A DNA stretch of 64,000 bases from NCBI GenBank assembly GCA_025526935.1, contig JAHLKD010000018.1, forward strand, positions 186,001 through 250,000, in the 5' to 3' direction. The notes under the pieces are model-generated. The model was not told the origin of the DNA, searched no databases, and worked only from the letters and a program-made list of their open reading frames with translations. Source of the stretch: Cladochytrium replicatum (lineage: Eukaryota > Chytridiomycota > Chytridiomycetes > Cladochytriales > Cladochytriaceae). Shown here in pieces: positions 8,187 to 45,055 of this stretch (position 1 is its first letter; each line of letters opens with the position of its first letter). The translations under genes and the position numbers were made by a program.

Positions 8187-8619
8187 GTTCAACACAACAT
8201 CAACGAGCCCCAGCGATGTGAACGAACATATCGAAAATTTTGTTCTAGCACTTGTGATTGGTTTTATGGCACGACTAGTTGAATTTTATCAGATCAATGT
8301 TCCAACTATTCTCTGTGGAGAGAAATCGACCGTCAAATTGTGTGTTCTATTTTATTCAAAAACTAGATGAGTTGAGAACCCTTTCATTTACTGCCTGAAG
8401 GACACCCGAAAAGTTTCGGCATGCAGAAAACCTTATGGAGGAGAGATATTGATGTGATTGGGGCTGTTGAGAGTTTGAAGCCAAAAAGTCTTGCATGAAA
8501 TTGGGAATCAGCAAAGTTAGCCACAAAGGATAGGCACAATAACATTACACGAGGAGTGGATACCAAGCATTTCCAGCAATATGAGATTTGGAAGTGTAAC
8601 TGTGGTCGCGACGATGAGG
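8187..8619. other. gap between methyltransferase copy 2 and INO80 remnant
   Basis: No supported gene. The minus-strand frame at 8384-8566 has no motif. This is where the missing N-terminal two thirds of INO80 would be expected if the downstream remnant were complete; nothing of it is visible. Confidence 0.45.
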
Positions 8620-10310
<1,691 letters not shown>

Positions 10311-10339
10311 TGTTGATAGCAGTGTGGAGTGGCAAGCTC

Positions 10340-11262
10340 GAGTGTTGTTCCTGGACTTCAATATTGTTACAAACTCTTTGATTGCCTGAGGCCAGAGTGG
10401 TATTGGGGTGATTGAAAATTGAGAACCCTCGTAGACAAACAAAAATTTAGAAGATCTGTCAGAAATGAAAGTGGAACAAACCGTAATCAAACATGTTGTC
10501 CTCATCAAAATAGTCAACGTCAACTTTCGTTGTAGTTCTGAAATATTAGAACCTACAAGCCAGGTTGGCAAACGATGGACTCTCAAGAATCGGTATTGTC
10601 CGAGTATTAGAACCTACAAGCCAGGTTGGCAAACGATGGACTCTCAAGAATCGGTATTGTCCGAGTTGCCCTCATCGTCTGCTCATCTGGCCATAAATTC
10701 ATGTGAAATCTCTTTTCGTAGTTTTAAGTGAACCAAGCATTCAATCGGAAAGTTTACAGAGATACCATGGCAAAAAATTTGAGGCAGGAAATTCACGCTC
10801 CATTTCAAAAAACCAGCTTGCTGAAGTCACACTAAAATCGATGAGTGTCCTGATATGTGGTTGGCAACAACAAAGGTATTCCGCATGTAGAGCCTTCATT
10901 CCAGCTTTCAACGCGGCAGCTGGAACCCATAAACTTGGTGTGAAATAGCTGCTTGAGGAGATAGTTCAGTTGGGCGTTCATTCGCGCAGCATTGACCGTT
11001 CCATGCCGGAAACGTGGGATTGTTATTGCGTCCGCTTTCGAGCGGATGGCATCTGCAGTGGATAGAATGCACTCGGCACAGAGTCGGCGGTCGAGCTTGA
11101 GGACGTAGGCGATGCTGAGCGTTCCAGTCCTCTCAGGCTGTTTCCCGTATTATCGACAACGGCAAATTTGGGTTGCTCGCTGTCACGTGTCTGGACGGCA
11201 CTGAAACGTGAATCCGAAGTGCTTTCTTTTTGACTGTCGCCTCTTCTTATATTCCTAGCCAA
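10340..11262 (-). pseudogene. third, most degraded methyltransferase copy
   Basis: Minus-strand scraps match the intact methyltransferase in order. A Ser-rich N-terminus lies at 11262-11023. LKQLFHTKFMGSS (about 10940) aligns with LKKLFKINYMG. FFEMEREFPASNF (about 10790) aligns with IAEMEQEFPESQF. SITPIPLWPQAIKEFVTILK (about 10390) aligns with the IREFTRILKPGG region. The glycine-rich SAM motif is lost, the pieces lie in different frames, and no C-terminal domain follows because the INO80 remnant begins there. A perfect 61-bp tandem duplication (10544-10665) lies inside it. Confidence 0.55.
10544..10665. repeat. perfect 61-bp tandem duplication
   Basis: The 61 bases from 10544 to 10604, starting TATTAGAACCTACAAGCC, are repeated without a visible change at 10605-10665. 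Such identity points to a recent slippage or unequal exchange, or to an assembly duplication. It lies in the degraded methyltransferase copy and so has no coding consequence. Confidence 0.9.
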
Positions 11263-11535
11263 TTCGGTATTTGTTATATTTGAAGAGGTCGATAAATCTT
11301 AGGGGAAACAGTATAGACAGAACAACCCAAAGAAATCATATACAGCCAGTGTATCTGAGCACCAGGTTCCTTTTTCCACTATGCAGATAGAAGGGATAAT
11401 TTCATGTTCTTGCAAACCGCAATTATGGGACTACAATGTAAATAACTAGATCAATGGAGAGGAAAGTTTCTGGTACGCTTGGAAAGGAGTAAAGAAAAGG
11501 GAAGAGCTCTTGAAGAGAAATGGAGTTCAGAAATT
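11263..11535. other. short gap 3' of the seven-helix gene
   Basis: The stretch contains the region just downstream of the stop codon of the minus-strand membrane protein and upstream of the degraded methyltransferase copy. No gene or repeat was recognised. Confidence 0.4.
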
Positions 11536-13120
11536 TTAAGGCTGCGGTCTGTTTGTGCCCCCATCAATATTCTCGGCTGCTTCGTCATCGTCTTCGTCTT
11601 CGTTGAGATGGTAGCCTTGCACAGAGTTGGGTTGTGTTGAAATGTGCGTAGTTGCATGGCCCACGACCGCACTGAATGCGACCATAAGGAAAGCACAAAT
11701 GGCGATGTGCACACCGACAGCTGTCGTGGAAAGGAACTCCAGCACAGCTGAGTATTTTTCGAAAATGGATGGAAGTATTCGTGGTGCAAGGTTGATGAAG
11801 ATAAGAGAGAGATCGACAAGGAGCAGCGCCGACAGAAGGAGGATCGGCGTTGCCCGGGCCGGGACCGTTCCAAGCGAATGTGTCGAATGCTTGGTGTGAG
11901 GGCGCTGGGGGGCCCCGCGTGACGGGGCCAGTGACGGTGTATTTGCGATCGAAGGAAGCGGAGTGGTCGATGCGCTGGGTGCTTGAAGTGATCGCGATGA
12001 TCGCACGTTGTGAAGATGGTGATAATTGGATGGTCCAACGGCCGAGTACGAGTTTGGCCTGTTGTAATGATTGTCTTGTATGGTTTCGCTTCGTCCGAAT
12101 GGATCAGTAGGCAAAGGAGGGTGTTGCCCCTTGATACTGGGGTTCTACAATCACACCTTGTTAAGATCACTCCACAGGTAATCGTTCAGTGTCACTTACC
12201 TCAGTTCCTACGAGCGTAAACTCTGTCTCTGACTCGGACACTGCTCCATGACGATTGCTCAAAAGCACTCCATCCTTGTGACGAAGATCTGTCTGTCGAA
12301 CCACGGATGCATTTTGGATTGGAGCAGCGCGATCGAGCACTCCGAAGGCGACTCTGCACAGCAAAATCGAGATCGTGTCGTCGAATACAAGAACGAAGGC
12401 AGTTTGAGCCGAACGGAAAATCATGACCAGCATCATTTCCAATTCGGAATACGGGGGCGGGTGGATCTGCACAATGACAATGCTGGAGAGTGTCAAGATG
12501 TACAGAATCGTGCCGGTGGCGATCGTTATCGCTCTTGAAACGTTCGACAGGAAGCGAAGACTGGAGCGATACATTGCCCATCGTCCAACGGCTAGCAAGA
12601 AATATCTAACAGAAAAAATGAGTGGGTGAGATGAAAAGAAAAGCATGTGGAGACAGACGTACATATAAACTAACAAAGCACAGTTGCAAGTAGGATTTCA
12701 TCGACCGTTTAGAACCAATGAAATCAAGCACTGTTAACAGCGTTACTTACGTGAGAAGTGTGCCAACACAACGCAGGATAAATCGAGCACTGATAAGATG
12801 GATCGAGCAAAGTCCCCAGACTTCCACACAAATGGTCGAAAGTCGGCAGATTTGGAGAGATCTTCAGGGAAGAAAAAGAGGATTTCGACGTATCTTGCTG
12901 CATGTAAAAGATTTGCAACAAAGATCAACGAGAAGGCAAGTGTAGCGGATCGTTTGAAATTTGATATGGTGGTGCCAGTGCGCCTGCGACTTGACACGTT
13001 GATCAGCATCCGAATCCAAACGACGGCAAATAGGAGAAAGCATCCAAGGGATAGGGCGGCTATCCCCAACTGTATGACGATTTCGACGGTCGGTAAGCCC
13101 GCTAATGGAATGGCTGCCAT
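11536..13120 (-). CDS. seven-helix integral membrane protein, orphan
   Basis: Exons 13120-12751, 12591-12200 and 12144-11536 join to 456 residues with consistent phases; introns are 159 and 55 bp. Hydrophobic segments: LGIAALSLGCFLLFAVVWI (TM1), LAFSLIFVANLLHAARYV (TM2), SILSVLDLSCVVLAHF (TM3), ITIATGTILYILTLSSIVIV (TM4), MLVMIFRSAQTAFVLVF (TM5), ILLLSALLLVDLSLIFINL (TM6) and TAVGVHIAICAFLMVAFSAV (TM7). A long Ser/Pro-rich loop of about 110 residues separates TM5 and TM6. The tail is acidic (NEDEDDDEAAE). The topology resembles a GPCR-type receptor, but I see no diagnostic family motif, so ligand and signalling role are unknown. The start ATG begins directly ahead of TM1. Confidence 0.75.
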
Positions 13121-13680
13121 CGCGGGTTGTTTTTTTGTGATTTCGGAAAAGGTGATCTGATGATGACGGATTCGTTGGAGTGGGGGGAAGAAAGAGAGGA
13201 CGGAGATATAAAGGAGAAGAGTCTTTCAGGATCCCTGACCCAGCCGAGAAATGTGGACGGATGTGGTGTTGGCTTGGTGTGAAAAACAAGCCAAACAATC
13301 CCAGGGGTGAAAGTGTGACTGTTGATCCTAATTTAACGTGGGAGTGGAGAATTTATGCACATCCGATTCGGCATTCGGCATTTCTCACGGGTGACTGCGA
13401 ACCACAACTTCATTGGTGGGAGATATGGTGGCACGGTGGAACAACTTTAAAAAAAGACAAAAAAAACAACAGCCCATCAGCCATCAGTGTACTAATGAAA
13501 GTCAGTCTAAAGCGAATAGCACGACAAAAATCACATGGTATCTCGAAGAATCCCAAAATGGAAAAGTTAGTCAACATAGATGCATTCATCTCGCAAAAAA
13601 ACAGAAAAAATAAGCCAAAAGTAACAGCAATGGAGAGAACAACCCAAAAAAAAGTAATAAAAAGTAGCTTTCCGGTACTC
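13121..13680. other. gap between kinesin 3' end and membrane-protein 5' end
   Basis: A plus-strand frame of 169 codons (13180-13689) exists, but it is Lys/Asn-rich low-complexity sequence across an A-rich stretch and shows no motif. The region most likely holds the 3' UTR of the minus-strand kinesin gene (T-rich in its sense) and the promoter of the membrane protein. Confidence 0.5.
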
Positions 13681-16600
13681 TCACTTTGATGGAGGAGCGG
13701 TCGGGCCACGGGAGCTGGATGTGTTTGCCAAGGCGACACGTTGCCCGGCAGGCACTCTTGGCACAGGCATCGATCGAGGACGGTCACTTGAGACTGCAGC
13801 CTCTTCTACCACTTCAGCAACAGAAGGCGGTTTTCCGTCGGCACTCAACAAGATCGGGGCCATGATCGCCACTGGCGAGACGGAGGGTGATGGATGCGGG
13901 AGCGCAATTGGAGACGCCAAGTTTGGCATCAAGTTGCGTTGCACGGACGCACCCAAGTTTTGGTTGGAAGATGGCGCAGAGAGACTCTTTCCAGATTTTC
14001 CTGGTGGTGGCGGTGGGAGCGGTTGCTGAGGCGGCGGGTGTGTAAATGCCCACGGGTAGATGGCGACTGCCGCCGGCACAACTTGAGGGTATGCAATCTT
14101 GCCGTTGGGAAGCTGAAGGAATGATGGAGGTGTTGAAGGTCCACCGAATGTGGTGAAATCGAACGAGTTTGGAATTCCAGGCTCTGATCCCGCATCTGAG
14201 AAAAAGTCATAGTCACTCGTCGCTGAGCGAATGGACGAACGTGACGATGCAACGGACGCAGCTCCAGCAACCCCTCCCGACCGACCAGATGCGACTGATG
14301 CTGACGCAACGGAACGCATCATCCTCTTAGCTGCGGCGGAGAGCTCGAGCTTCTCCACACGCTTCAGCAGTTCCTCAATAACCTTGTCCCGTGTCTCCGA
14401 AAGTGCTGAAACATTCTCTGCATGCAGTTTGACTTCCCAATTCTGGGAAGTTACCCTTTCGAGTTCTTCTCGGGCTTGTTGAAGCCTTATCTCGAGCTCT
14501 GCAATCGTCTCCTCCTGGGTTTGCTGAATTGCAGTCGCAAATGAAAGCTCTGAAACGAGAGCAAGCGTGTCACGCTCCGGAGTTTCAAACTCTGTCTGGC
14601 TTCCGATATCCCTCAAAAGAACAAACTCTTCCAACAGCTCACCGACTTGGCCACTGTCAACCATCGGTGAATCTGCGCTCGTCGCGCCAATCACCGTGGG
14701 GCTCACGGATCTAGCGAGCTCCTCTGAAACTTCTTCAAGCTCTTGCTGCATCATGATATTCTCTTGATCAAGCGAAGTCAAGTGATCCCGGACACGGTCT
14801 CTCTCTTCTTCGAGCAGTGCCATCTCTCGCTGAAGATCCTCATTGGCAGCCTGTAGATCCAACACTTTCTGCTCCAATTCTTGCACTTGACGCGCTGTGG
14901 TGCTGATCGCCTGTTGCATGTAAGAGTCTCGAGCACGAAGGCGTGCTTCAGTGTCCTTCACTCTCTTCTCAAGCACGCGCGCCTTCTCTTCGTTCTCTTC
15001 GGACCTCGCAGCAGACTCAAGCACCTCTGGCACAGCCAAACGTGCCTGCAACAGCGACTGCGTAAGGTGGTAATCGATTGTTAGCTGGCCCAGCTGTCGG
15101 TAAAGCTCTGCGTTCTCGATCGAACTACTCTGCAGAGTTTGGCTCGAAGATGATGCAGGGAACTCTACACTAGCATGACGTCCAACACCAGGCTGGCTTG
15201 GACCTAGAAGACAATGTTTAAGCAAACTTTCAGAGCACGAGTAAAATACTCTCACCTTGAATATCGCGGCTGCGAGTGGACAAAACCTCGTCCTTCTCTC
15301 GCGACCTTTGATCCATTTGAACGGGATCGGCGTAGGTGGTAGACGATGCCATCGACATGGTCCTAGTGCGTTCCGATGTCGCACCAAGCTCTCTGGGAGC
15401 AGACTGAAGGTACGTTGTCGTGATAGCCTGGTACTCGGTCGATCGTTCAGTCGCTGCTCTCACAAGAACTGAAATCTGATCTGACAACTCCCGGATTTTG
15501 TCATCCTTGCTTCGAACAGATTCCTCGAACTTCTTTTCTGCAAGACGGACCTTCTCTTGGAGGTCACGGACAACGTGGTGATGAACTGCGTCTTTCTTCT
15601 CAGCTTCCATCTTCGCCGTCGCCAACACATCGGCCATTTTACGTTCGGACAAGGTGACATCAGCCCGAAGCCTTTCAACTTCCGCCCGGAGTGACACCAA
15701 TTCTCGATCTCTTGCTCCAAGCTTGTCGGCTGCATCTGCGCTCCCCCTCGTTAGAGTCGAATACCCAGATTCCAGCTCGACAATGCGAGTTTCATTGCTT
15801 TTGATCTGATACTGAAGCAATTCCACTGTGTGCCTGTGTTCCACGGACTCCTGCTCCTTTTCGCGAACAGCCATTTCAATTGCTGCTTTATGCTTCTCAA
15901 CTTCAGCGAGCAGTTCATCTCTCAACCGACCAGCTTCTGCCTTCGCGGCTTCCACATCGCGGTCTCGCTTCGACACTTCGACCGCCATCTCATCCACCTG
16001 ATGCACTTTCGATTTCACATCAGCATCGGCAAGCAAGATTCGCTCTTTCAGCTCGGCCACTTCTTTTGCACGATCCGATCTTTCCAATTCGACTGCACGC
16101 TCCGCTGCGACCTTTTGCTGAGCTAGCTCCTCAACTCGTGCTCGCATACGCTCAACCGCTACTATGTCATCTTGCTTCTCTCGCTTCAAATCCGCCAGCT
16201 CCCACCGCATTCGGCCATGGTCAGCCTCCAGACTCGACACATGCTTTTTAAGAGTGTCCTTCAAATCGCTGACCTCTTGACGTCGCACGGTTTCAGCTTC
16301 TGCCGTCGCAGCTTGCAACAGGTGATGGTCCAACACCTCTTGATGCAAACGAGCTCCTAACCCAAACTCATCAAGTTCCACAACGCGTTCCTCCACACGT
16401 TGCACCACGATTTGCAGAGATTGCGAGAGATGGTGGTCTAACAACTCCTGATGGTATTTGATCTTCATCGACTCACCATCAACGCGGGACTCCATGGCTT
16501 CAGCTTTCAGCGTTTCCGCTTCTCCCTTCTGTGCAGCGGCCGCCTCAGACGCGAATGAGAGCATGAGGTGATGATCGATCAGCTCTTGATGATACCGGGA

Positions 16601-19600
16601 GTCTGTGACAACAGATGTTTCATCTTTCACTTCACCAGTCATTCTTGGGAACGATAGTGCCCAGTGCAAATCTACGACACCCTGATGCACCGCTGCCCTC
16701 AATCGCTCCAGCTCGCGTTCCCTCTGCCCAACCATCTCCACTAAAATCTGGGTAGTTTCCTCCCTCTCCCTCTCCGACTCGTCTAGCATCATACGCGCCT
16801 CCTCCAGCTCACCCTGAATCGCCTCAGCGTAAGCCTTCTGTTCTCGATTCGACTCCATGATCCTCTCCACTTCCCCGCGCGCGTTCGCCAGATCCTGAGT
16901 TAAACCTTCAACCTTCTCGTCCTTCTGCTGCATTTCGTCGCCGAGTTTCTCGGCGTCACTCAACGCAGCTGCAAGCCGAGCTTCCAAATCCAAAATTAAA
17001 GACTCGTAGATCTCCAAGGGTGCAGCGGGCGTGTCGTTCGCAACCCCACCAAGAGGAACATTCCAATCCTCGTTATCCTCGCTACCCATTTCCATAATGT
17101 CCTCCTCAATCGATGCGGGTAAAGGAAGCGCGGCTTGCCGTTTTTGGATGATCACAAGAGATGCCTTATACCTGGTCTTCAGCTCGGACATCTGCTCTTT
17201 TACCACCTCCACTTTCGCATTCAGCCGAATCGCATCTTCAGCCGCATACGATTCCGCCAAGTGCTGATCGATCAACAGCTGGTGCGCTTTGACGAACAGA
17301 CGGGTGTATTCCCGGGATGCACCAATCTCAAATGCGTGCAGCCTGGATAGTGCATCGTCACGAGCGGACTCCGCTTCTGTCAGTGAGTACTCCAAGCTCG
17401 CGGATTGATCCATTAACTCGCCCTCTCTCATCTCCGCATTGCGGACCTGATCAACAAGCACATCGATCTGGTCCCGCAATTGTTCAATCTGCTCACTCAA
17501 CCTCCGCGCTTCGTCGTTCGCGATCTCCAACAGCTCCTCCTTGTCCTGGATAGTCTCATTCAGCGACAGCAGCTCGTCGCGATGTCCCTGAATTGACACT
17601 TCCATCTCAGTCATCTGTTCTTCTGCCGTTTGGTATGCCCGATTGACTGACTGCAAACGGCTCTGAAGATCGTTGGTCTCTGCAATCAAGGAGATCTGCT
17701 TCTGTGTCATTGTTGAAATGGTCCGCTCCAACTCCCCAACGAGACCGCGATGTGTTTGCTCCAGCTCTTCCCGCTCGCTCTGAGCCGTTCTTCGATAATC
17801 ATTAAGCGTTCGTTCGTGCAGCTCAGCCAACGATTGCTCCGCTCCATCTCTTCGAAGACGCTCATTATCAAGCTCTTTGACTAAGTTCTGAACTTTGTAG
17901 CTGTGCTCCTTAACCAGTGCTTCCAGCTTCGAGGTCAGCTCCTCGACGTTGGCCACAAGCCTGTCGTTACTCGCGTTGGCCTCCTTAAGCATCGTCTCAC
18001 GATCTTCTCCTTCCTGCTCAAGCATCGAAACTCTCGCAGCAAGCTCACGCCTCTTGATCTGAAGCTGCTCGTGCTGAAGTTCCAACTCGGTCAGTGAGTG
18101 CTCCAACTTGCGGCGGTCTTGCTCGAGCTGTGTCTTCTCTTCGATAAGTCGATCAATCAGCTTTTGCCGGCCCTCGGCCACCGTCGACTCTTGTGAAGCA
18201 AGCTCCCCAGCGACAGCCTCCATGTCCGCGATTCGCTTCTCCAGCATCGCAATCTCTTCCTCGGCTTCACGTTTCAAAGCCATCGCCTCGCCTTCGTACT
18301 CCTGCGCTGCACGTGCGGCATCGTTTCGGACACGCTCAAGCTCAACCGTCATGGTGTGAACTTCCTCTCGCAACCGCGCCTCAGTCGCAGACGCTTCAGA
18401 CAGCAAACGGTCAAGCTTCTCTTCAAAAGTCGCTTTCACGGTTGCCTTCTGCTTCTCCCGGTCCTCAACTGTTGCAGTAAGCCTCTCGACTTCTTCCCGC
18501 TTAGTCTGGATCTCCATGTCGGCGCGCACCAATGCCGCAGCCTTCTGCTTCAAAACTTCATCAAGTCGCATAGCGGACTCCATCGTGATCTGCTGGATCG
18601 ACGCTTCCATCGTCTCACGCATTCGTTCCTTGTCCGCCTTATGGTCGAGCTCTTTCCTCAACATGTCCTCTTTCATACGTGCAAGATCAGCTCGAAGCTC
18701 CTGGAGCTCAGCTGTCGATCGCTCACCAAGCGCCGCACGCTCTCTAGCAAGCTCTCCGAGCTGTGCCTGGCTATCCGCATGGTCTGCTCGTGCTCGCTCA
18801 AGCCGAGATTGCAGCTCCTCCGCCAAGAGCTTTGCCTCTTCCTGCTCCCGCTCATGGCGGCTCCGCATCTCCTTAACAACTCGGTTGTGCTCCGATGTTC
18901 GCTTCTCGATCTCGCGACGTGCCTGATGAAGGTCCTCCTCCTGCATCACGAGTGCGGCATCTTTCTCCTCAAGCTGGATGTTGAGCTGCTGAATCTTTTC
19001 ACGCAACTCTCGCTCGACGGTCTCAAGCCGTGCGCGCATCGTTTCGACCTGGCCTCTCTGTTCCTTGGAGAGATTGTCGAGCTTCCCACGGTGCTCGGAA
19101 CGCGCTCGCTCCATCTCCTCATTGTGCACCAGCACGCGACGCTCCATTTCTTCAGCGAGGTCTCGTTTTTCTCGCTCCACACGTGCAATCTTCAGCTCGG
19201 CCTCGTGCATTGCAAGCCTGTTCTCAGAAGCAGCGTCATCAGCGCGTCGAACTGCCTCCGCGAATTCCAACGTTCGCTCTTCGAGGCGTCGTCGCAGGTC
19301 TTTGATGTCCCGCTCGTACCGCGTCGTCGCATCAGTGTACCGCACCCTTGCGGCTTCAAGGTCTTCGAGCGATCGCTGATGCGCCGCAGTAGCTTGCTCA
19401 TGTCGTGCTGCAGCCTCAGCTAGCTCAGCTTCATACTGCCTCACTCGTTTCTCAAATCCGGACGTGTTCGCTCGACCCAGTGACACAGCATCCGAGTGCT
19501 GACGAGATACATCGTCCAGCTTTGAACGAAGTTCTTCAATCGTCGCTTCGTGCTGGGCTCTCGTGGCAGCGTACGCAGCGCTACTCGCCTCCGCATCCGC

Positions 19601-22600
19601 AACAGCCTTGGTGTACTCCTCGGAGACTTGGTCAAGAAGTGCTGTCAGTTCCGCAGCTTTAGCTTGCTGCTCGCGCAACGCCTGCGCATGCTTCCTTGCA
19701 GCCTCTTCCGATGCCGCAACGGCACGCTCATACGCATCCCTCTGCGCGTGCACGTCCTTGGTAAGCCGGTTCTTCATCAACTCAGAAGCGGCTCTATCGT
19801 GCTCACCACGGTTGCGTTCTTCAGCAAGCATCTGCTCCAACTCTCGGAGCTGGGCTCCCAAACTCGACTCCGTGGACGATGCAGTGCTCCGCTCGCGTTT
19901 TGCACGCGCGATTTCATCGGATAGCCTCTGCTTCGTTTCGTCAAGCTCAGCCAAAAGTTTCGCCTCATTGCCTTCTGCAGCTTTCCTCTCGCGCTCTCCA
20001 CGTTGCTGCTCAGCCGCGAGCTTCCCACGCACGCTCGCAAGATCAGCCATAAGCTGCTCTTCGGTTGACGCCAAACTACTTCGGAGTACTTCTGCATTTT
20101 CGCGCTCAGACCCGAGCCGCTGCTCAAGTTCGCCAAGTTTGGCAAGCAACGACGCTTCAGTCGCAGCCGCAGCAGCCATGTTTCGCTCCGATCGCTGTCT
20201 CTCAGAATTGAGCTCCTCCTCGATGTCTCGGATACGTCCAGTCATCCGCTCTTGCATCTCATTTGAAGCGACCCGATCACGATCACCACATTCCTGCTCA
20301 GCCAAGAGCATCACCTCTGTCTTCTGGAGCTCGGCATTTAGTTGCGCTTGAGTCAATTCAGCGGCCTTCCGATCTCTCTCTCGGCGGTCAGTTTCGTCGG
20401 CCAGCTTGCCCTCCACTTCGAGCAGCAAATCGTTCAACTGTTCTTCCATCGCGTCAGCCGCTTCCTTGGCAAGTTGCCCGCGAGTTATCTCGGCTTCAAG
20501 ACTCGCCTCAACACTCTTTTTCTGCTCAAGTAATTGCGCCTCCCTCGTGCTGGCATTGCTTCGGTTCCGTTGTCCAGTTGCAATCTCCTCCTCAAGCTTC
20601 CTCTGGATCTCAGACAGTTGAGCAACCAGCTCCGCTTTCTTTTCAGCAGCTGCTTTCTGGTCTTGTTCACGGTGCAAAGTTTCAGCTTCAAGCTTGCTCT
20701 TCACTTCTCGAAGCTGACTTTGCAGAGAAGTTTGGATATCGACATCAGCACTGTGCTCACGCTCCGCACGCGCTTTTTCGTCTGCAAGCTCCTTACGTGT
20801 TTTCTCCAATTCTGTGGCAAGGCCAGCTTCTGTGGCCGAAGCTGTGTCGCGATCGCGCTTGCTCCTTTCTATCTCACTACGCAACGACGCTTTGAGTTCG
20901 TGGAGTTCGCCTTCGAGTTTGCCAGTTGCTGCTTCTGACGCCCTTCGGTCCTGCTCACCACGGGCCTTTTCAGAGGCAAGTCGGTCCTGAACCTCTCGAA
21001 GTTCTGCCCGCAATTTCTCCTCCGTCGCTGCGGCATTCGCTCTGTTCCGAGAACCACGATCCTTCTCAGCTGCAAGACGCTCCTCGATCTCTCGAGCTTT
21101 CTCATGCAAAGCAGCTTCAGTTGCGGCAGCCGACTCGCGATCACGCACACCGCGCTCCCGCTCGCCTGAAAGTTCCCTCTCAATATCTGCGATCCTCGTG
21201 CTCATCTGCTTCTCAAGCTCGACAGCCGCAACACGGTCCTTCTCACCACGTGCTCGCTCCTCGCTAAGCTTCGACTCTACGTCCCTGATCGACCTCTCAA
21301 GCTCATTGACTGTCTCAGCCGCAACCCTCCTGTCCTTCTCCCCTTGCGCTTTCTCAGCTACGAGCATCCCCTCGACACTCCGAAGTTGTCCGAGGTACCC
21401 TTCAGCAACCTTTCTCTCCATCTCTTTCTGCTCTTCCATAGTCACACGAAGCGCCTCCATACGATCTTTCAGATCCAACATACGTTGCTCGTATACCTCG
21501 CCCTCGGCAATGCGTTTCTGCTCGACTTCCATTGTGAAGGTCGCTTGGAGCTGGTTGTTCACGGCCATTTGTCCCAACTCGCGCTCCCGATCGCGTAGGA
21601 ATTCCTCGAGCGCACTAGCGTGGGAGGCGTGTGCCTGTCGCTCGCGTTCAGACGCTTCCTCGAGCGCGGCGAGATCGTCGCGCAGAGTCGCGATGACATG
21701 TGTGTGTTCCTCAATCGATCGCTGGAGGGCATCTACAGTCTCTTGGTTCGCGACAGCGTCGTTTTGATGGAGTGACATCGTGTAGTGGTAATCGGCGAGC
21801 TGTTGAGAGTACATGTGGAGGACGGAGTCCAGGCGAGCTTCGATTTCGGCCTTTTGGGTTTTAAGATGAAGGTTGGTGCCTTTGAGTTTGCTGATTAAGA
21901 GCTGGTCGGCTACGCCTTCGGCGACTGCAGAATGGTAGTCGATGAGGGTTTGGTTTGCGTACTGCTGGAAAGCAAGTGCTGCATTCTCGGCCTCAACAGC
22001 TCGAGATTCAGATTCTATCCGATATGTCAAGATTAGCAACAAAAAAACGCAACATGATTTCAGGTATTCACCATATTTGACCCGCCTCAACTCGTCCTGG
22101 ACGCTAATAAGTATTAGCTTCATCTTTTCGACTTTGGCGTGGTCCTCAATTGTGTTTGATTTCACATTGTTCTTGATCTGTCGAGCACGCGCTGCATACC
22201 GCAAAGTACTCAACGTCTCGAACAAGTCGTCGTGCGCCGGAGAAACACACGCGATCATGAGTGTTTGGCTTCAGAGACAAAGAAAATTAATGATGCAACA
22301 ATGACCACAACCCGTAATCTAACTAACCTATTTCCACCCAGTGAATCTTTAAGGATTCGGGTGAGCTTTGAATTTCTGTACGGAATATGCACTTCCTGCG
22401 GTGGCTGCGAGAGTGCCGCAATCTTGGCTTTCATCGACATTCCCGATCCACCTTCTTCTTTCTCATGGTTGGGAGCAGCCATATCCCTATCGGCCAGTGC
22501 AGAGATAACTTTGCCAAGTGCCAACAGTCCACCGTTGATCGAAATTCCTTCCTTTTGCCTGTCTCCAGTCGCGTTCGTTCTCTTGAGACGTTCAGAGCCA

Positions 22601-24175
22601 GCAAGATCGACGAAATGGAATTTGGAGAGGGAAGTCACAGTGCGCACAATATGACGCGCTTCTGGCATATGTGTCACGTCAACAGTAAGGGGGACATAGT
22701 GCTTCTGTTGGTACAGGTGGAGGGTGAGGATTGCGTGAGATCGGGAAGACTGTTCGTTCATGACGGTCGAGGAGGTTCGACGAAGTGTTGAGCCCTTATT
22801 CAGGTACCTATACGAATAGCGTTAGTATCAGCTCATTATTCTTTGAGAAATTGGCCTGACTTTAGCACATCGTCGACAGTTGTACATGCTTTCTCCTCTA
22901 GACCAGCAACATAAATTGAACCATCCTTCGCGTCTCGGATCATGATTCCTTTCTCTCCATGAGAACCGGTTGATTTCGGCTTTTTTCGTTGCACTGCATT
23001 CTTGGCTGCAAACGATCCGTTCCACTCGGGCAACTTTGGCGCGGCTCCTGGCGTCGGCTCCTCTGGTGCAGGCGGATCTGCAAGCAAGTCGACTAGATCT
23101 TCATTGTACAACTCCAAGAACGAGATCTTCACTGCGTAGGTCATGTACAGGTTTGCGGTGGGATCGTCCGAGAGCCGGCGATTTCGGTTAAGCGTTTCGA
23201 AGATATATCTCGCTGCCCGTGGGATAATACCAAGTTTTGCACGGAGAGACGAGTCCGTAGACGGGAGCGTCATTGCTGAGGAAGTCTCTGCAGAGCCCAT
23301 TGTAAATGTCTTTCCCGATCCGGTCTGTCAAAACGAAAAAAGTTAGCGCGGAATTACGGGTTGAGAGTTATATGCACTCCACATACCTGACCGTAAGCCA
23401 GGACAGTTGCGTTGAAACCATTGAGGAACTTTTCGATCAATGGTCGAGTACACTCGAACAAATCGTCCTGCGAGGCATCGTCATTATATACATGGTCGAA
23501 TGTGAACGCCTGGTACTCTTTCCGTGCTGTAGCGCCGGGAATCGCAGATGCACTTCCACCAAAGAACGTGTCTGGGGTAGGCATCGCCAGAATTGGGGAC
23601 GGAGGTGGAGAGGAACCAGCCTCAGCTGGCGTGGCTACACCATCAGCATCAGCAGCTGCTACGGGAGCCTCTTTGTCTTTTGCAGCAGCTCCAGGGACGA
23701 CCGGGTCCCTCGCAACAGCCTCGACAATGGTCACAGTAGTCGGGTCTGTCGGGTCCACACGAACCGCAAGTTTCGAATGACGGGCAACCTCCCCAGAGGA
23801 GAGGGGCCTAATACGAAGGGCAACCTGTACAGAGCTGGATAGATGAGGATTTGCAGGCGGGACTGGACCTTTCAAGGCGGCATGTGAGGGAGTTGGCGAT
23901 ATTGCAGCGGAGTACTCAGAAGTTGGCGATTGTGGCTCCGATGGTGGCACAGGAGAGGAGAGAGCGGAGGAGACTACAGACTCAGCAATACTCAGCTTTC
24001 GTGCGTAGAGTGGTTGTGAAGATGATGGGACGGTTGGTGCTGATGATAAAGGTTTTGTTGTAGCGGTAGTCCGAGTGGGCAGACCAGACCTTGCAGTCGA
24101 GCGAGTCGGCGTAGGGATGGACACGCTCACAGCAGGCGAAGCTGTCCGCCGCGACGACACGGACGGTTTCATCAT
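13681..24175 (-). CDS. giant kinesin-4-like motor with 2.5-kilo-residue coiled coil
   Basis: Exons 24175-23387, 23324-22861, 22807-22328, 22268-22072, 22014-15256 and 15203-13681 give 3403 residues. After a Ser/Pro-rich 110-residue leader comes the motor: P-loop GQTGSGKT (about 262-269), switch [10 protein letters not shown] (435-443) and switch II DLAGSE (485-490). [19 protein letters not shown] is typical of the kinesin-4 group (KIF4/KIF21/KIF27). Two low-complexity insertions occur inside the motor. Residues 645 to about 3150 are nearly continuous coiled coil. They include 17 exact-length 32-residue repeats (860-1403) and a recurring H-Q-x-L-[IL]-D-x-H-L motif. The C-terminus is Ser/Pro-rich and unstructured. 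The length is two to three times usual kinesin-4 size. Expected role: a plus-end microtubule motor or scaffold; cargo unknown. The 57-bp intron at 22015-22071 is in frame and could be retained. Confidence 0.92.
19736..21367 (-). repeat. 17 tandem 96-bp (32-residue) coding repeats in the kinesin
   Basis: Reading down the minus strand from 21367, the protein divides without gaps into 17 units of exactly 32 residues. Typical units begin [20 protein letters not shown] and [20 protein letters not shown]. The pattern is roughly [RKES]-L-x-x-E-x-x-R-[GS]-x-[RK]-[DN]-R-x-[AS]-x-A-x-T-E-x-x-L-x-x-x-L-x-E-[IV]-[ER]. 32 equals three heptads plus one hendecad, which would keep a coiled coil continuous. 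The DNA copies have diverged, so the array is old rather than a recent expansion. Confidence 0.9.
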
Positions 24176-28460: not shown

Positions 28461-29941
28461 ATGTCCAAGCCACTTGTTTTTCTAGCAATGTCAAAGTGCT
28501 GCCAAAATCCTAGTCTCGCCGATGCGGAATTGGACGACATCGGCGCAGACGAGCTGCTGCCCCTGTGCGCAAACTGCGGCTCGCTGTGGACGCTCCCTTT
28601 TCCTCGCCGTAACAATACTAGCGGCAGTCACGTCTCAACCCTGACGTTTGCAGACCATGACCTTTCGTCCAATCTTCCCATCTTCAAACTGCATCACCAA
28701 CGTCAAATCGGACTTGATGTAAAGCTATCATAGTATTTTGTTACAGCTTATTAATGAGTAATGCTCTTTCCTTCCAGACTCCCTCACTCATGCGCTTGCA
28801 CGCTGCCCTCAAAGCACTGAACGCGATATCATTGTGTGATCGAATCCTCGAGCTTCTCCAGTCCCTCCTATCCGATGAACGCCTTCCCTTCTTACACTCC
28901 ACACTTCCCCCAACACAGGGCCGCCTCAACCTCCTCACCTCTGTCTGTATCTACCACGCCATCCGTGAACGATCCCTCCCAAATACCCTTGAGGATATCT
29001 GTTCCGCGCTCACAGTCACTCCAGTCCAATTCACATCCCACATCCTCTCCCTACGACCGTATCTACCTACTCTTCCATCCCATGATCCCGAGATCTACAT
29101 ACCCAAAGTGCTACATGCGATGGACCCCACTGCAGAACCTTTGGAGAACCGAAAGCGCGAGAATCTCGCCTTGCGATTCCTCAAACTCGCACGAGTCGCG
29201 TACGCGCACGTCGGACGGCGTCCCGCGATCGTTGGCGCAGCTGCCGCGATACTTGGCTTCGAAGCGCACCAGGGCGTGCGCGCACCGATGTATTTCTACG
29301 AGAGAGCGGCTTCGGTCGCAAAAGCAAATTTGAAAACATTGCGCGGTCGACACGACGAGCTGCTGGAAGTGTTTGTGGTTGCCGCGAGCGCGCTGCCGTG
29401 GGGGACGGACATCACTCTCGCGAATGTATACCGTTACATGGAAGACTTCTCGAAATATGTGGTGGTTCCAGAAGCTCGAGAAGGGAACGCGTCATTACAA
29501 CCTCCGTCGTTTGTTAAGAGTGTTCAAATGCGGGAAGAAAGAGAATCATTGATTCGGTTGGCGCGGCAGAGCGTACAGCAAAGAGAGAGTGGTGGTGAGA
29601 GCATGGAGGTCCCGAAGCTGAAAGTGGTGAGATTGCTTTTGGAACGCGGATGGAGCGACGAAAGAATCGTGGGAACAAAGCACCTTCCCACCTTGGAGGA
29701 TCTAGAGTTTGTCGACGACGATGATGATGACAGGTTTGGCCCAACTTCTGACGACGAGGAGGTTGAGGAGAACCACGACGATATGCGTTGGGATGAGCCC
29801 TGTGAAGATGGAGATTTTGGGTACCAAAATGGAGACGAATGGGATGATGATGAATATGTGGATGATGAGGAAAGGAGATTGACTGAGTTGCTAAGCGGGA
29901 AAAATATTGGCAGACCAGCAAAGCGTGTCAAACTACGATGA
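28461..29941 (+). CDS. TFIIB-related factor, BRF2-like (Pol III TFIIIB subunit)
   Basis: Two exons (28461-28718, 28778-29941) give 473 residues. The N-terminus has a probable zinc ribbon (Cys13, Cys14, then Cys36-A-N-Cys39-G), odd in that the first pair is not a clean CX2C. Two cyclin-like repeats follow: repeat 1 around RLNLLTSVCIYHAIRERSLP, repeat 2 around RPAIVGAAAAILGFEAHQGV. The last 130 residues are acidic (DDDDDDRFGPTSDDEE) with a basic end (PAKRVKLR). Fold order and length fit TFIIB/BRF2. Family role: bridging TBP and RNA polymerase III at promoters. BRF2 versus another TFIIB paralogue is not settled from sequence alone. Confidence 0.72.
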
Positions 29942-40856: not shown

Positions 40857-41125
40857 GTCCACCGGACACTTTCCAAGAAGACACAATATATGTTTTGTAT
40901 CAAACAACTTCCATCACCACAAGCTGTACTTTCTGTCCACCCGGACACTTTCCAAGAAGTCACAACAGAATTCTGTAACAAACAATTTTTACCGCAACAG
41001 ACAGCGAGAGCTGTGCTTTCTGTCCACCTGGACACTGTCAAGAAGTTACAACGGAAGTACTGTAACAAACAATTTCTACCACGACAGACCTTGAGAGTTA
41101 TGCTTTCTGTCCACCCGGACACTTC
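40857..41125. repeat. tandem array A, about 87-bp units with GTCCACCCGGACAC core
   Basis: TTTCTGTCCACC.GGACAC occurs at 40857, 40935, 41022 and 41109, spaced 78, 87 and 87 bases. The sequence between cores is also similar (CAAGAAGT.ACAAC, CTGTAACAAACAATTT.TACC). The core is partly self-complementary (GTCC..GGAC). The same core recurs in array B at 44608-45055. Confidence 0.85.
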
Positions 41126-42095
41126 AAGCTGTAACTTTCAAGCCACTCAACAACAAAAAATTGATGCCCCCTTTGTTTAACCAAAGCATAAGGCAGCATC
41201 CGACGCAAGCCAAACTGACTTCTCAGAATGCATCAGAGCTTCCTGCCGACTTAAGTTTTGCTGACTCTTTAGTGCAACAGGAGCCAGCAGCTGGATTGGT
41301 TCAACCATCAATGCTTTCTTCAGTTGCAGATGTTGATAGCATTTTGGACTATAGAGGTGGTTGAGGCGGCATAGCAAAGCATTACTATAAGGTTGATAAT
41401 GGACTGAGAACGTGTTTGGTAGCGAAATGCAAGTGGAGCCAGGAAGTCACCAGGCCGCTTGGACTGTTGGACACTGTCCTCAAGGGACAACAAGCATTGA
41501 ATTTTGGCTTGCTGGAGAAGGAATGTTAAAAACCAAGGGCTTCCCCTAGCAGCGGTAGGGCGTTTTAGCTGTACTGTAGCTAGCACAACAGCTCCAGGTT
41601 CCGTCTCTTGGCCCGGTTGAATATGGGGTAATGACAAAGCAAAATTCCCTTGCTGCACACAAGCACTCTGTGGCTAATACAAATCAAGGCTAGGATTGCC
41701 TAACCAGGAAGACTGTGGTGTGTGAGAGTTTGGTTTGTTCCACTGTCTCAAGGAACCAGCCACTCTCACACCTGCACTAAATATTCCCACACAGAAATTC
41801 GCACGCCCAAACATGAAAAACAATGACAATAAACAGCATGACTGCCCAAAACATAAATCAAGCAATAGCATAAAAAGCTCTCAAGCCCAAGAGAAAAAAC
41901 CTATTGTGCAAAATAATGGCTAAGCCCCCCAAGGATACACAGAATTTTAACAAGGAGCAAGACTTTGTGTTCAATCCAGATGTCGTGTGGTGGTCAATTT
42001 TGGACTGGATTGCTGCAGACAATCAGGCTTTTACTATAGTGGAGAACAAGTTCCTTGTCAGCATGCTGAAGACTTTTCACCCAAACTATACTTCT

Positions 42096-44607: not shown

Positions 44608-45055
44608 GTCCACCCAGATACTTTCTCAACTCCTTGGCCGCACTTCAGTGATCTCCATCAAGTACAACGAACCTCTCTACAAATACTATTAGGAGAAGAA
44701 TACAGCTAACGTCTCTACAAATAATACTAGCAAAAGGGTTCTGTCTACCTGGGCACTTTCTCAACTCATTGACGATACTTCAGTAATCTCCGCCAAATAC
44801 AACTAACCTCCCTACAAATGCAACTAGCAATAGGATTTTGTCCACACAGACACTTTCTCAACTCATTGACAGTACTTCAGTAATCTCCACCAAATTAAAC
44901 AAACCTCTCTATCAATATTACTAGCAATCCGACTCTGTCCACCAGGACACTTTCTCAACACCTTGACCGTACTTCAGTGCTCTCTACCCAATACAACTAT
45001 CCTCTCTATCAATCCTTTTACCAATAGGATTCTGTCCACGCGGACACTTTCTCTC
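44608..45055. repeat. tandem array B, about 97-bp units with GTCCACC.GGACAC core
   Basis: The core GTCCAC..G.ACACTTTCTC starts at 44608, 44743, 44840, 44937 and 45033, the last four spaced 97, 97 and 96 bases. The rest of the unit is shared too (CTTCAGTAATCTCC.CCAA, AACCTCTCTA, TAGCAATAGGATT). The core is the same as in array A, but the unit body differs. Confidence 0.87.

Follow-up and report, generated by a model that had tools for sequence, protein, structure and literature searches.

A recurring 13-residue motif in a giant kinesin-4-type protein and in a motorless protein with a common tail

The kinesin gene and its motor

A stretch of 64,000 nucleotides (C18:186001-250000, hereafter the window) from a genome of 50.5 Mb in 198 contigs was analysed. 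It carries the gene of a very long kinesin, and the subject of this report is a 13-residue motif that recurs along the stalk and tail of the encoded protein. The exons were joined by hand, and the spliced protein of 3,403 amino acids has no internal stop. The same exons are found in a second kinesin gene on contig C7, whose product shares 3,029 of 3,395 aligned residues with the window protein (89% identity).

13681..24175, minus strand: kinesin gene, six exons, 3,403 amino acids; one open frame, with the same exon structure in the C7 paralogue
23387-24175, 22861-23324, 22328-22807, 22072-22268, 15256-22014 and 13681-15203, minus strand: kinesin exons 1-6; hand splicing at GT..AG sites
22072..24175, minus strand: N-terminal region and kinesin-4-type motor (exons 1-4); Pfam PF00225 and PDB matches

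The motor domain matched the Pfam family Kinesin (PF00225), which places the protein in the kinesin superfamily (P-loop, switch I, switch II). DLAGSER and one 16-residue stretch, both present in the spliced protein, represent such motifs. The top seven of the 151 PDB sequences obtained with the motor are 7x4n, KIF4 and KIF7 entries, and the same seven came out on top with exon 3 alone. The entry 7x4n, listed in the PDB only as 'Kinesin-like protein', is taken here to be the kinesin-4 KLP-12. On these matches, the motor is closer to kinesin-4 than to other kinesin families. No WD40 was detected up to E=1 in a Pfam scan of the exon 5 frame and exon 6, and the protein was thus not assigned to the KIF21 subfamily, whose members have this domain at the C terminus. 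The IFT81 domain had one match in the genome, at 29.5 bits just above the cut-off of 27.4, which suggests that the genome is from a flagellated lineage. That this lineage is fungal is inferred from the content and structure of the genes.

A discrete motif in the stalk and tail

The motif has the form x-Q-x-[LVT]-[ILVA]-D-x-H-[LYWS]-x-x-[SA]-x and is present in eight copies in the kinesin (m1-m8). Copies m1 and m2 adjoin the motor, m3-m7 lie near the end of the stalk and m8 heads the C-terminal tail. A first-pass annotation, made from the sequence without database searches, had described this element as H-Q-x-L-[IL]-D-x-H-L. The eight copies it reported are all in frame and where it had placed them, two before and six after the 32-residue array that they were said to flank. 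The leading His of its formula is not a fixed residue, as it is present in 5 of the 8 kinesin copies (6/11 when the motorless protein described below is included). The copies and the array are listed here with their standing in a position-specific scoring matrix (PSSM) or in a structure model, the latter given as predicted local distance difference test (pLDDT) scores.

21917..21955, minus strand: motif m1, amino acids 664-676; weakest copy, leave-one-out score 13.7 bits
21770..21808, minus strand: motif m2, amino acids 713-725; PSSM
19745..21349, minus strand: array with units of about 32 residues, between m2 and m3; approximate limits by eye, unseeded repeat search
17246..17284, minus strand: motif m3, amino acids 2221-2233; within a long predicted helix, pLDDT about 71-74
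16649..16687, minus strand: motif m4, amino acids 2420-2432; end of a long predicted helix, pLDDT about 60
16553..16591, minus strand: motif m5, amino acids 2452-2464; start of a predicted helix, pLDDT about 50-56
16415..16453, minus strand: motif m6, amino acids 2498-2510; predicted helix, pLDDT about 48-61
16307..16345, minus strand: motif m7, amino acids 2534-2546; start of a predicted helix, pLDDT about 52-63
15052..15090, minus strand: motif m8, amino acids 2935-2947; BLASTP homology to the motorless protein starts here

The bare pattern Q-x-x-[LIVMA]-D-x-H has 8 matches in the kinesin; when the protein was shuffled 5,000 times within 50-residue blocks, the mean count was 0.085 and the highest 2. 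With a PSSM built from the eight copies, eight windows scored at least 28.9 bits and the ninth 5.2 bits. Leave-one-out scores ranged from 13.7 to 32.6 bits; when compared with 200 shuffles, m1 was equalled by the maximum of five, m2 by that of one and the other six copies by none. In an unseeded search, each 13-mer of the tail was used as the seed of an eight-copy motif. The motif emerged as the best-separated repeat: its four top registers had gaps of 27.0, 25.9, 24.0 and 23.6 bits, and further registers 21.0, 17.4 and 17.3 bits. In ten shuffled tails, for which every second 13-mer served as a seed, the best gap per tail was 12.3-13.5 bits. When the sets were ranked by leave-one-out minimum, the units of the 32-residue array came first (16.5 bits versus 13.7 for the motif, with shuffles at 5.1 or below).

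These values make it exceedingly improbable that the motif is a by-product of a Glu/Leu-rich coiled coil: 8 matches are seen where 0.085 are expected, 23.7 bits separate the copies from the next window, and the motif is the best-separated set in the unseeded search. In favour of such an origin, the C7 paralogue matches the bare pattern once more, with EQKVLDLHAANED in its TEARLRARD coil (about C7 225850), where a one-residue change from the counterpart in the window protein gives the match. This is a chance match to the bare pattern, which can also arise in a coil. The m2 copy of the C7 paralogue fails the bare pattern at position 5. The by-product explanation was rejected for this protein on discreteness and the shuffles; the heptad index described below is too coarse to weigh in this matter. 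Thus, the proposal of a discrete recurring motif unexplained by heptads was borne out, and neither of the two outcomes named with it as counting against it, a common by-product and unconserved His and Asp residues, was encountered within this genome.

A motorless protein shares the kinesin tail

A search of the genome with the m4-m7 region returned the two kinesins and two weak matches (E 0.03 and 0.05). On translation, each weak-match locus contained three more copies of the motif, LQRTADAHYVASF, HQLTIDHHLLISY and NQLLADHHLLLSL (n1-n3). The second carrier is a pair of proteins on contigs C79 and C163, with open frames of 914 and 851 amino acids, in which Pro-rich stretches separate n1, n2 and n3 and the C-terminal regions are poly-Pro and Gln-rich.

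L052:3409-6135, plus strand, and L053:2695-5247, minus strand: motorless protein pair; open frames, translation
14707..14952, minus strand (window): coiled coil TEARLRARD..., amino acids 2981-3062 of the kinesin, common to the motorless proteins; BLASTP, heptad index
14590..14613, minus strand (window): RDIGSQTE, LC8-type short motif candidate, amino acids 3094-3101 of the kinesin; RDIGIQTD in the motorless proteins

No kinesin was found in these proteins in the Pfam scan, and the genome search with the motor gave no match on C79 or C163; as far as seen, the protein is motorless. BLASTP of the last kinesin exon against it gave 100 bits (E=3e-26). The homology starts at m8/n3, crosses the TEARLRARD coil and reaches LLRDIG[SI]QT[ED]. 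A second coil is common to the kinesin tail and the motorless protein (BLASTP, 75 bits, 3e-18). Both families keep the LC8-type candidate (kinesin, RDIGSQTE; motorless protein, RDIGIQTD), and the Dynein_light family has three matches in the genome. Short motifs bound by LC8 are grouped into two classes, GIQVD and KXTQT, in an extract of one account (PMC13114162). The candidate in the two tails is put forward as a lead only.

Constraint on the motif

Q2, D6 and H8 are invariant in 11/11 distinct copies (8 from the kinesin and 3 from the motorless protein), and position 12 is S or A in all of them. The conservation of the Asp and His residues pointed out in the first-pass annotation is therefore seen in every copy in this genome. 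His is found at both positions 7 and 8 in five of the 11 copies. These residues had been suggested to form a metal or pH site, with the His/Asp pairs binding metal or titrating. The invariant H8 and D6 and the adjacent His residues would suit such a sensor. In helical metal-binding motifs, the His/Asp ligands are constant and lie at i,i+3 or i,i+4, whereas the constant D6 and H8 are spaced i,i+2 and in a helix would point away from each other; His is variable elsewhere in the motif (H1 in 6/11 and H7 in 5/11). The suggestion found no support and a sensor appears very unlikely, although the spacing argument weakens if the motif is not helical. A resemblance to iron superoxide dismutase over 9 residues (E 0.95) was taken as chance.

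All eight motifs are retained in the C7 paralogue. Amino acid differences between the two kinesins amount to 4/104 in the motifs, 49/347 in the flanking 30 residues and 315/2,432 in the rest of the tail (Fisher test, p=0.0018 against the flanks and 0.0019 against the rest). The four differences are A/S, L/V, V/I and I/V, and none is at Q2, D6, H8 or S12. The kinesin pair is well diverged, since 41% of four-fold sites are different; changed codons are 44 synonymous and 4 non-synonymous in the motifs and 654 and 315 elsewhere (p=1.1e-4). In the motorless pair, compared over a segment of 306 residues, the motifs have 0/39 differences and the rest 33/267 (p=0.008). When both pairs were pooled, the counts were 4/143 and 348/2,699 (p=3.7e-5). 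On these counts, the motif looks to have been kept by selection. The copies could also be remnants of an old repeat duplication that have no function of their own at present, and growth of repeats does occur in this stalk, as in the 32-residue array. We consider this unlikely in view of the 44 synonymous against 4 non-synonymous codons in a pair differing at 41% of four-fold sites, and of the unchanged copies (0/39) in the motorless pair.

The kinesin genes lie in a duplicated block, C7:215201-235200 and window 8609-24173, with 84% DNA identity in the kinesin gene and 79-82% in pieces of the downstream stretch (window 8609-10347). The duplicated block, together with the paired motorless gene, suggests that the genome or a large segment of it was duplicated, or that the organism is a hybrid. 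Near the stretch also duplicated on C7, a perfect two-copy tandem repeat of 61 bases is present at window 10544-10666.

Structural setting of the copies

Amino acids 2190-2600 were modelled with AlphaFold2 from a two-sequence alignment of the paralogues (mean pLDDT 64; predicted template modelling score, pTM, 0.27). The model has helices at m3-m7 and breaks at model residues 243-260, 300-303 and 334-339, which fall between m4, m5, m6 and m7. Stretches with pLDDT <50 lie between m4 and m7 (model residues 241-264, 293-306 and 326-345), and a fourth lies between m3 and m4 (81-121). Linkers differ in length between the paralogues, 32 versus 38 residues for m4-m5 (a change of 6 residues) and 36 versus 33 for m6-m7 (changes of 1 and 2 residues). 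By a heptad index, a crude measure made for this analysis with a threshold of 0.33, all eight copies are outside the flagged coiled-coil segments in both kinesins. The earlier placement of the motif inside a coiled coil is doubtful for m4-m7, where the linkers break and pLDDT drops below 50; m3 is in a long predicted helix. Because of the breaks in the model, the changes in linker length and the Pro-rich separators of the motorless protein, at least m4-m7 and n1-n3 have the look of modules placed between coils or outside them.

The same structural data bear on a second explanation, in which the motif segments would pair with one another, within the dimer, in a fold-back or between the kinesin and the motorless protein, and act as hinges or clamps ending coiled-coil segments. 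Copies m4, m5 and m7 are at the ends or starts of predicted helices, and mixed assemblies would be possible because both proteins carry the motif. The long helices of the model (amino acids 2190-2430) resemble coiled-coil hairpins in the PDB; the fold comparison itself gave helical hairpins, mainly at model residues 6-193, and is uninformative. The motor of human KIF21A, according to an extract of one account, is bound and inhibited by an antiparallel coiled coil that forms part of the stalk (PMC4971492). Homotypic packing of this kind is, in our estimate, rather unlikely.

Searches for further carriers

Neither the motorless proteins nor exons 5 and 6 of the kinesin had a Pfam family above its cut-off, and no description of the motif was found in the literature searched. 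The statement that no motif of this form had been described thus stands for Pfam and for that literature, and the motif is likely to be novel. Scans of prokaryote genomes and viral contigs gave no useful relative outside this genome. One match in a viral contig (L051, 23 residues) was rejected, as the long frames there are phage-like by eye and have no match to the pattern.

Within the genome, the best-scoring places were read. A strict DNA pattern gave 13 matches, against 2 for a control pattern; 8 are in the two kinesins and 5 elsewhere, in open frames of 20-150 amino acids. The strict pattern recovers 4/8 copies in each kinesin and misses all those of the motorless protein, and so leaves room for other carriers. 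With a looser pattern there were 68 matches (control, 30), of which 8 are in the kinesins and 13 in identical copies of one dispersed sequence. Four of the places with remaining matches were read over 300 bases each; three translate to the pattern, none with a second copy, and no frame was found at the fourth (L073). The kinesin-motor exon had 100 matches, the best 30 of which were read with about 1.5 kb on either side; of these 30, the two kinesin-4 loci alone had the pattern, except for a single match in a frame of 46 amino acids. Protein searches with n1-n3 plus the coil and with m1-m2 revealed no third carrier in this genome.

The dispersed sequence, CAAAGACTGGTGGACAGTCATCT, is present in 13 identical copies and in variants (for example at C7:709456, C10:249769 and C13:11986) and is possibly part of a mobile repeat.

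Proposed docking to a common partner

Among the explanations considered, docking to a common partner ranks first and homotypic packing next. The findings suggest a site of attachment that recurs along the protein, and not a by-product of its coiled coil. Multivalent docking fits best because multiple short, constrained copies are common to a motor protein and a motorless one. Tentatively, and at somewhat less than even odds, we regard the motif as a short element through which this very long kinesin-4 interacts repeatedly. Each copy would be a short, probably helical segment whose Q2, D6, H8 and S12 residues contact one and the same putative partner. By this means, the kinesin and the motorless protein may be recruited to, or cross-linked in, the same assembly. 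The helical state, the docking and the same use of the motif in both proteins are inferred.

Several points weigh against the docking proposal. Constraint was measured on paralogues of one genome, a weak stand-in for orthologues. The m5-m6 linker is 46 residues in both paralogues. The heptad evidence is weak, since only about 846 of about 2,540 tail residues are flagged and m3, next to a flagged segment, has an index of 0.32, just under the threshold. The AlphaFold2 model is also weak at the pLDDT and pTM given above, and has m3 inside a long helix. The conservation moment at 100 degrees was not significant (p=0.30), an alternating pattern at 180 degrees being stronger, and neither was the hydrophobic moment at 100 degrees (p=0.92). 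As both tests for a helical face failed, it is the weak model and the context that speak for a helix.

A broader and more doubtful proposal is that an undescribed 'HQxLIDxHL' repeat is the hallmark of a system of two proteins in a eukaryote that has flagella and is probably a fungus. The giant kinesin-4 and its motorless counterpart, which have one tail in common and carry several copies each, would bind the same partner or each other in a multivalent motor-scaffold assembly, which may also recruit LC8.

Other features of the window

Tandem repeats of 87 and 97 bases are present at 40922-41128 and 44699-45053, both with CTGTCCACC..GACACTT. A frame at 28718-29941 on the plus strand has a BRF2-like cyclin repeat match below the cut-off (22 versus 27 bits).

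Significance and comparison with known systems

Coiled coils look alike, which makes it difficult to recognise the functional parts of a kinesin stalk. On this kinesin-4, likely contact points are marked by a 13-mer that is both discrete and constrained, and that led to the motorless protein with the same tail. With one motif, eleven distinct copies, two protein families and three constant residues, the cargo, scaffold and regulation of the kinesin become testable. If the motif occurs across zoosporic or other fungi, it would constitute a new protein-family signature.

The kinesin-4 proteins KIF4, KLP-12/KIF21, KIF7 and Schcokin4 likewise have an N-terminal motor and a long coiled-coil stalk. 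The window kinesin differs from this family in its 3,403 amino acids, its eight motif copies, a tail common to a motorless protein and the lack of a WD40 match. In an extract of an account of basidiomycete kinesins, Schcokin4 of Schizophyllum has 1,978-2,000 amino acids and several coiled-coil areas, and no such motif is mentioned there (PMC8950801). The regulatory coil of KIF21A, as far as the extract cited above describes it, is similar in being an element of a kinesin-4 stalk outside the dimer rod. It is a single coiled-coil domain, whereas the window kinesin has a repeated 13-mer.

Clients of LC8 may carry several short docking sites. The likeness to such repeated docking motifs lies in the several short copies placed in linkers. 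The 13-mer itself is neither GIQVD nor KXTQT, and the RDIG[SI]QT[ED] candidate lies separately in the tail.

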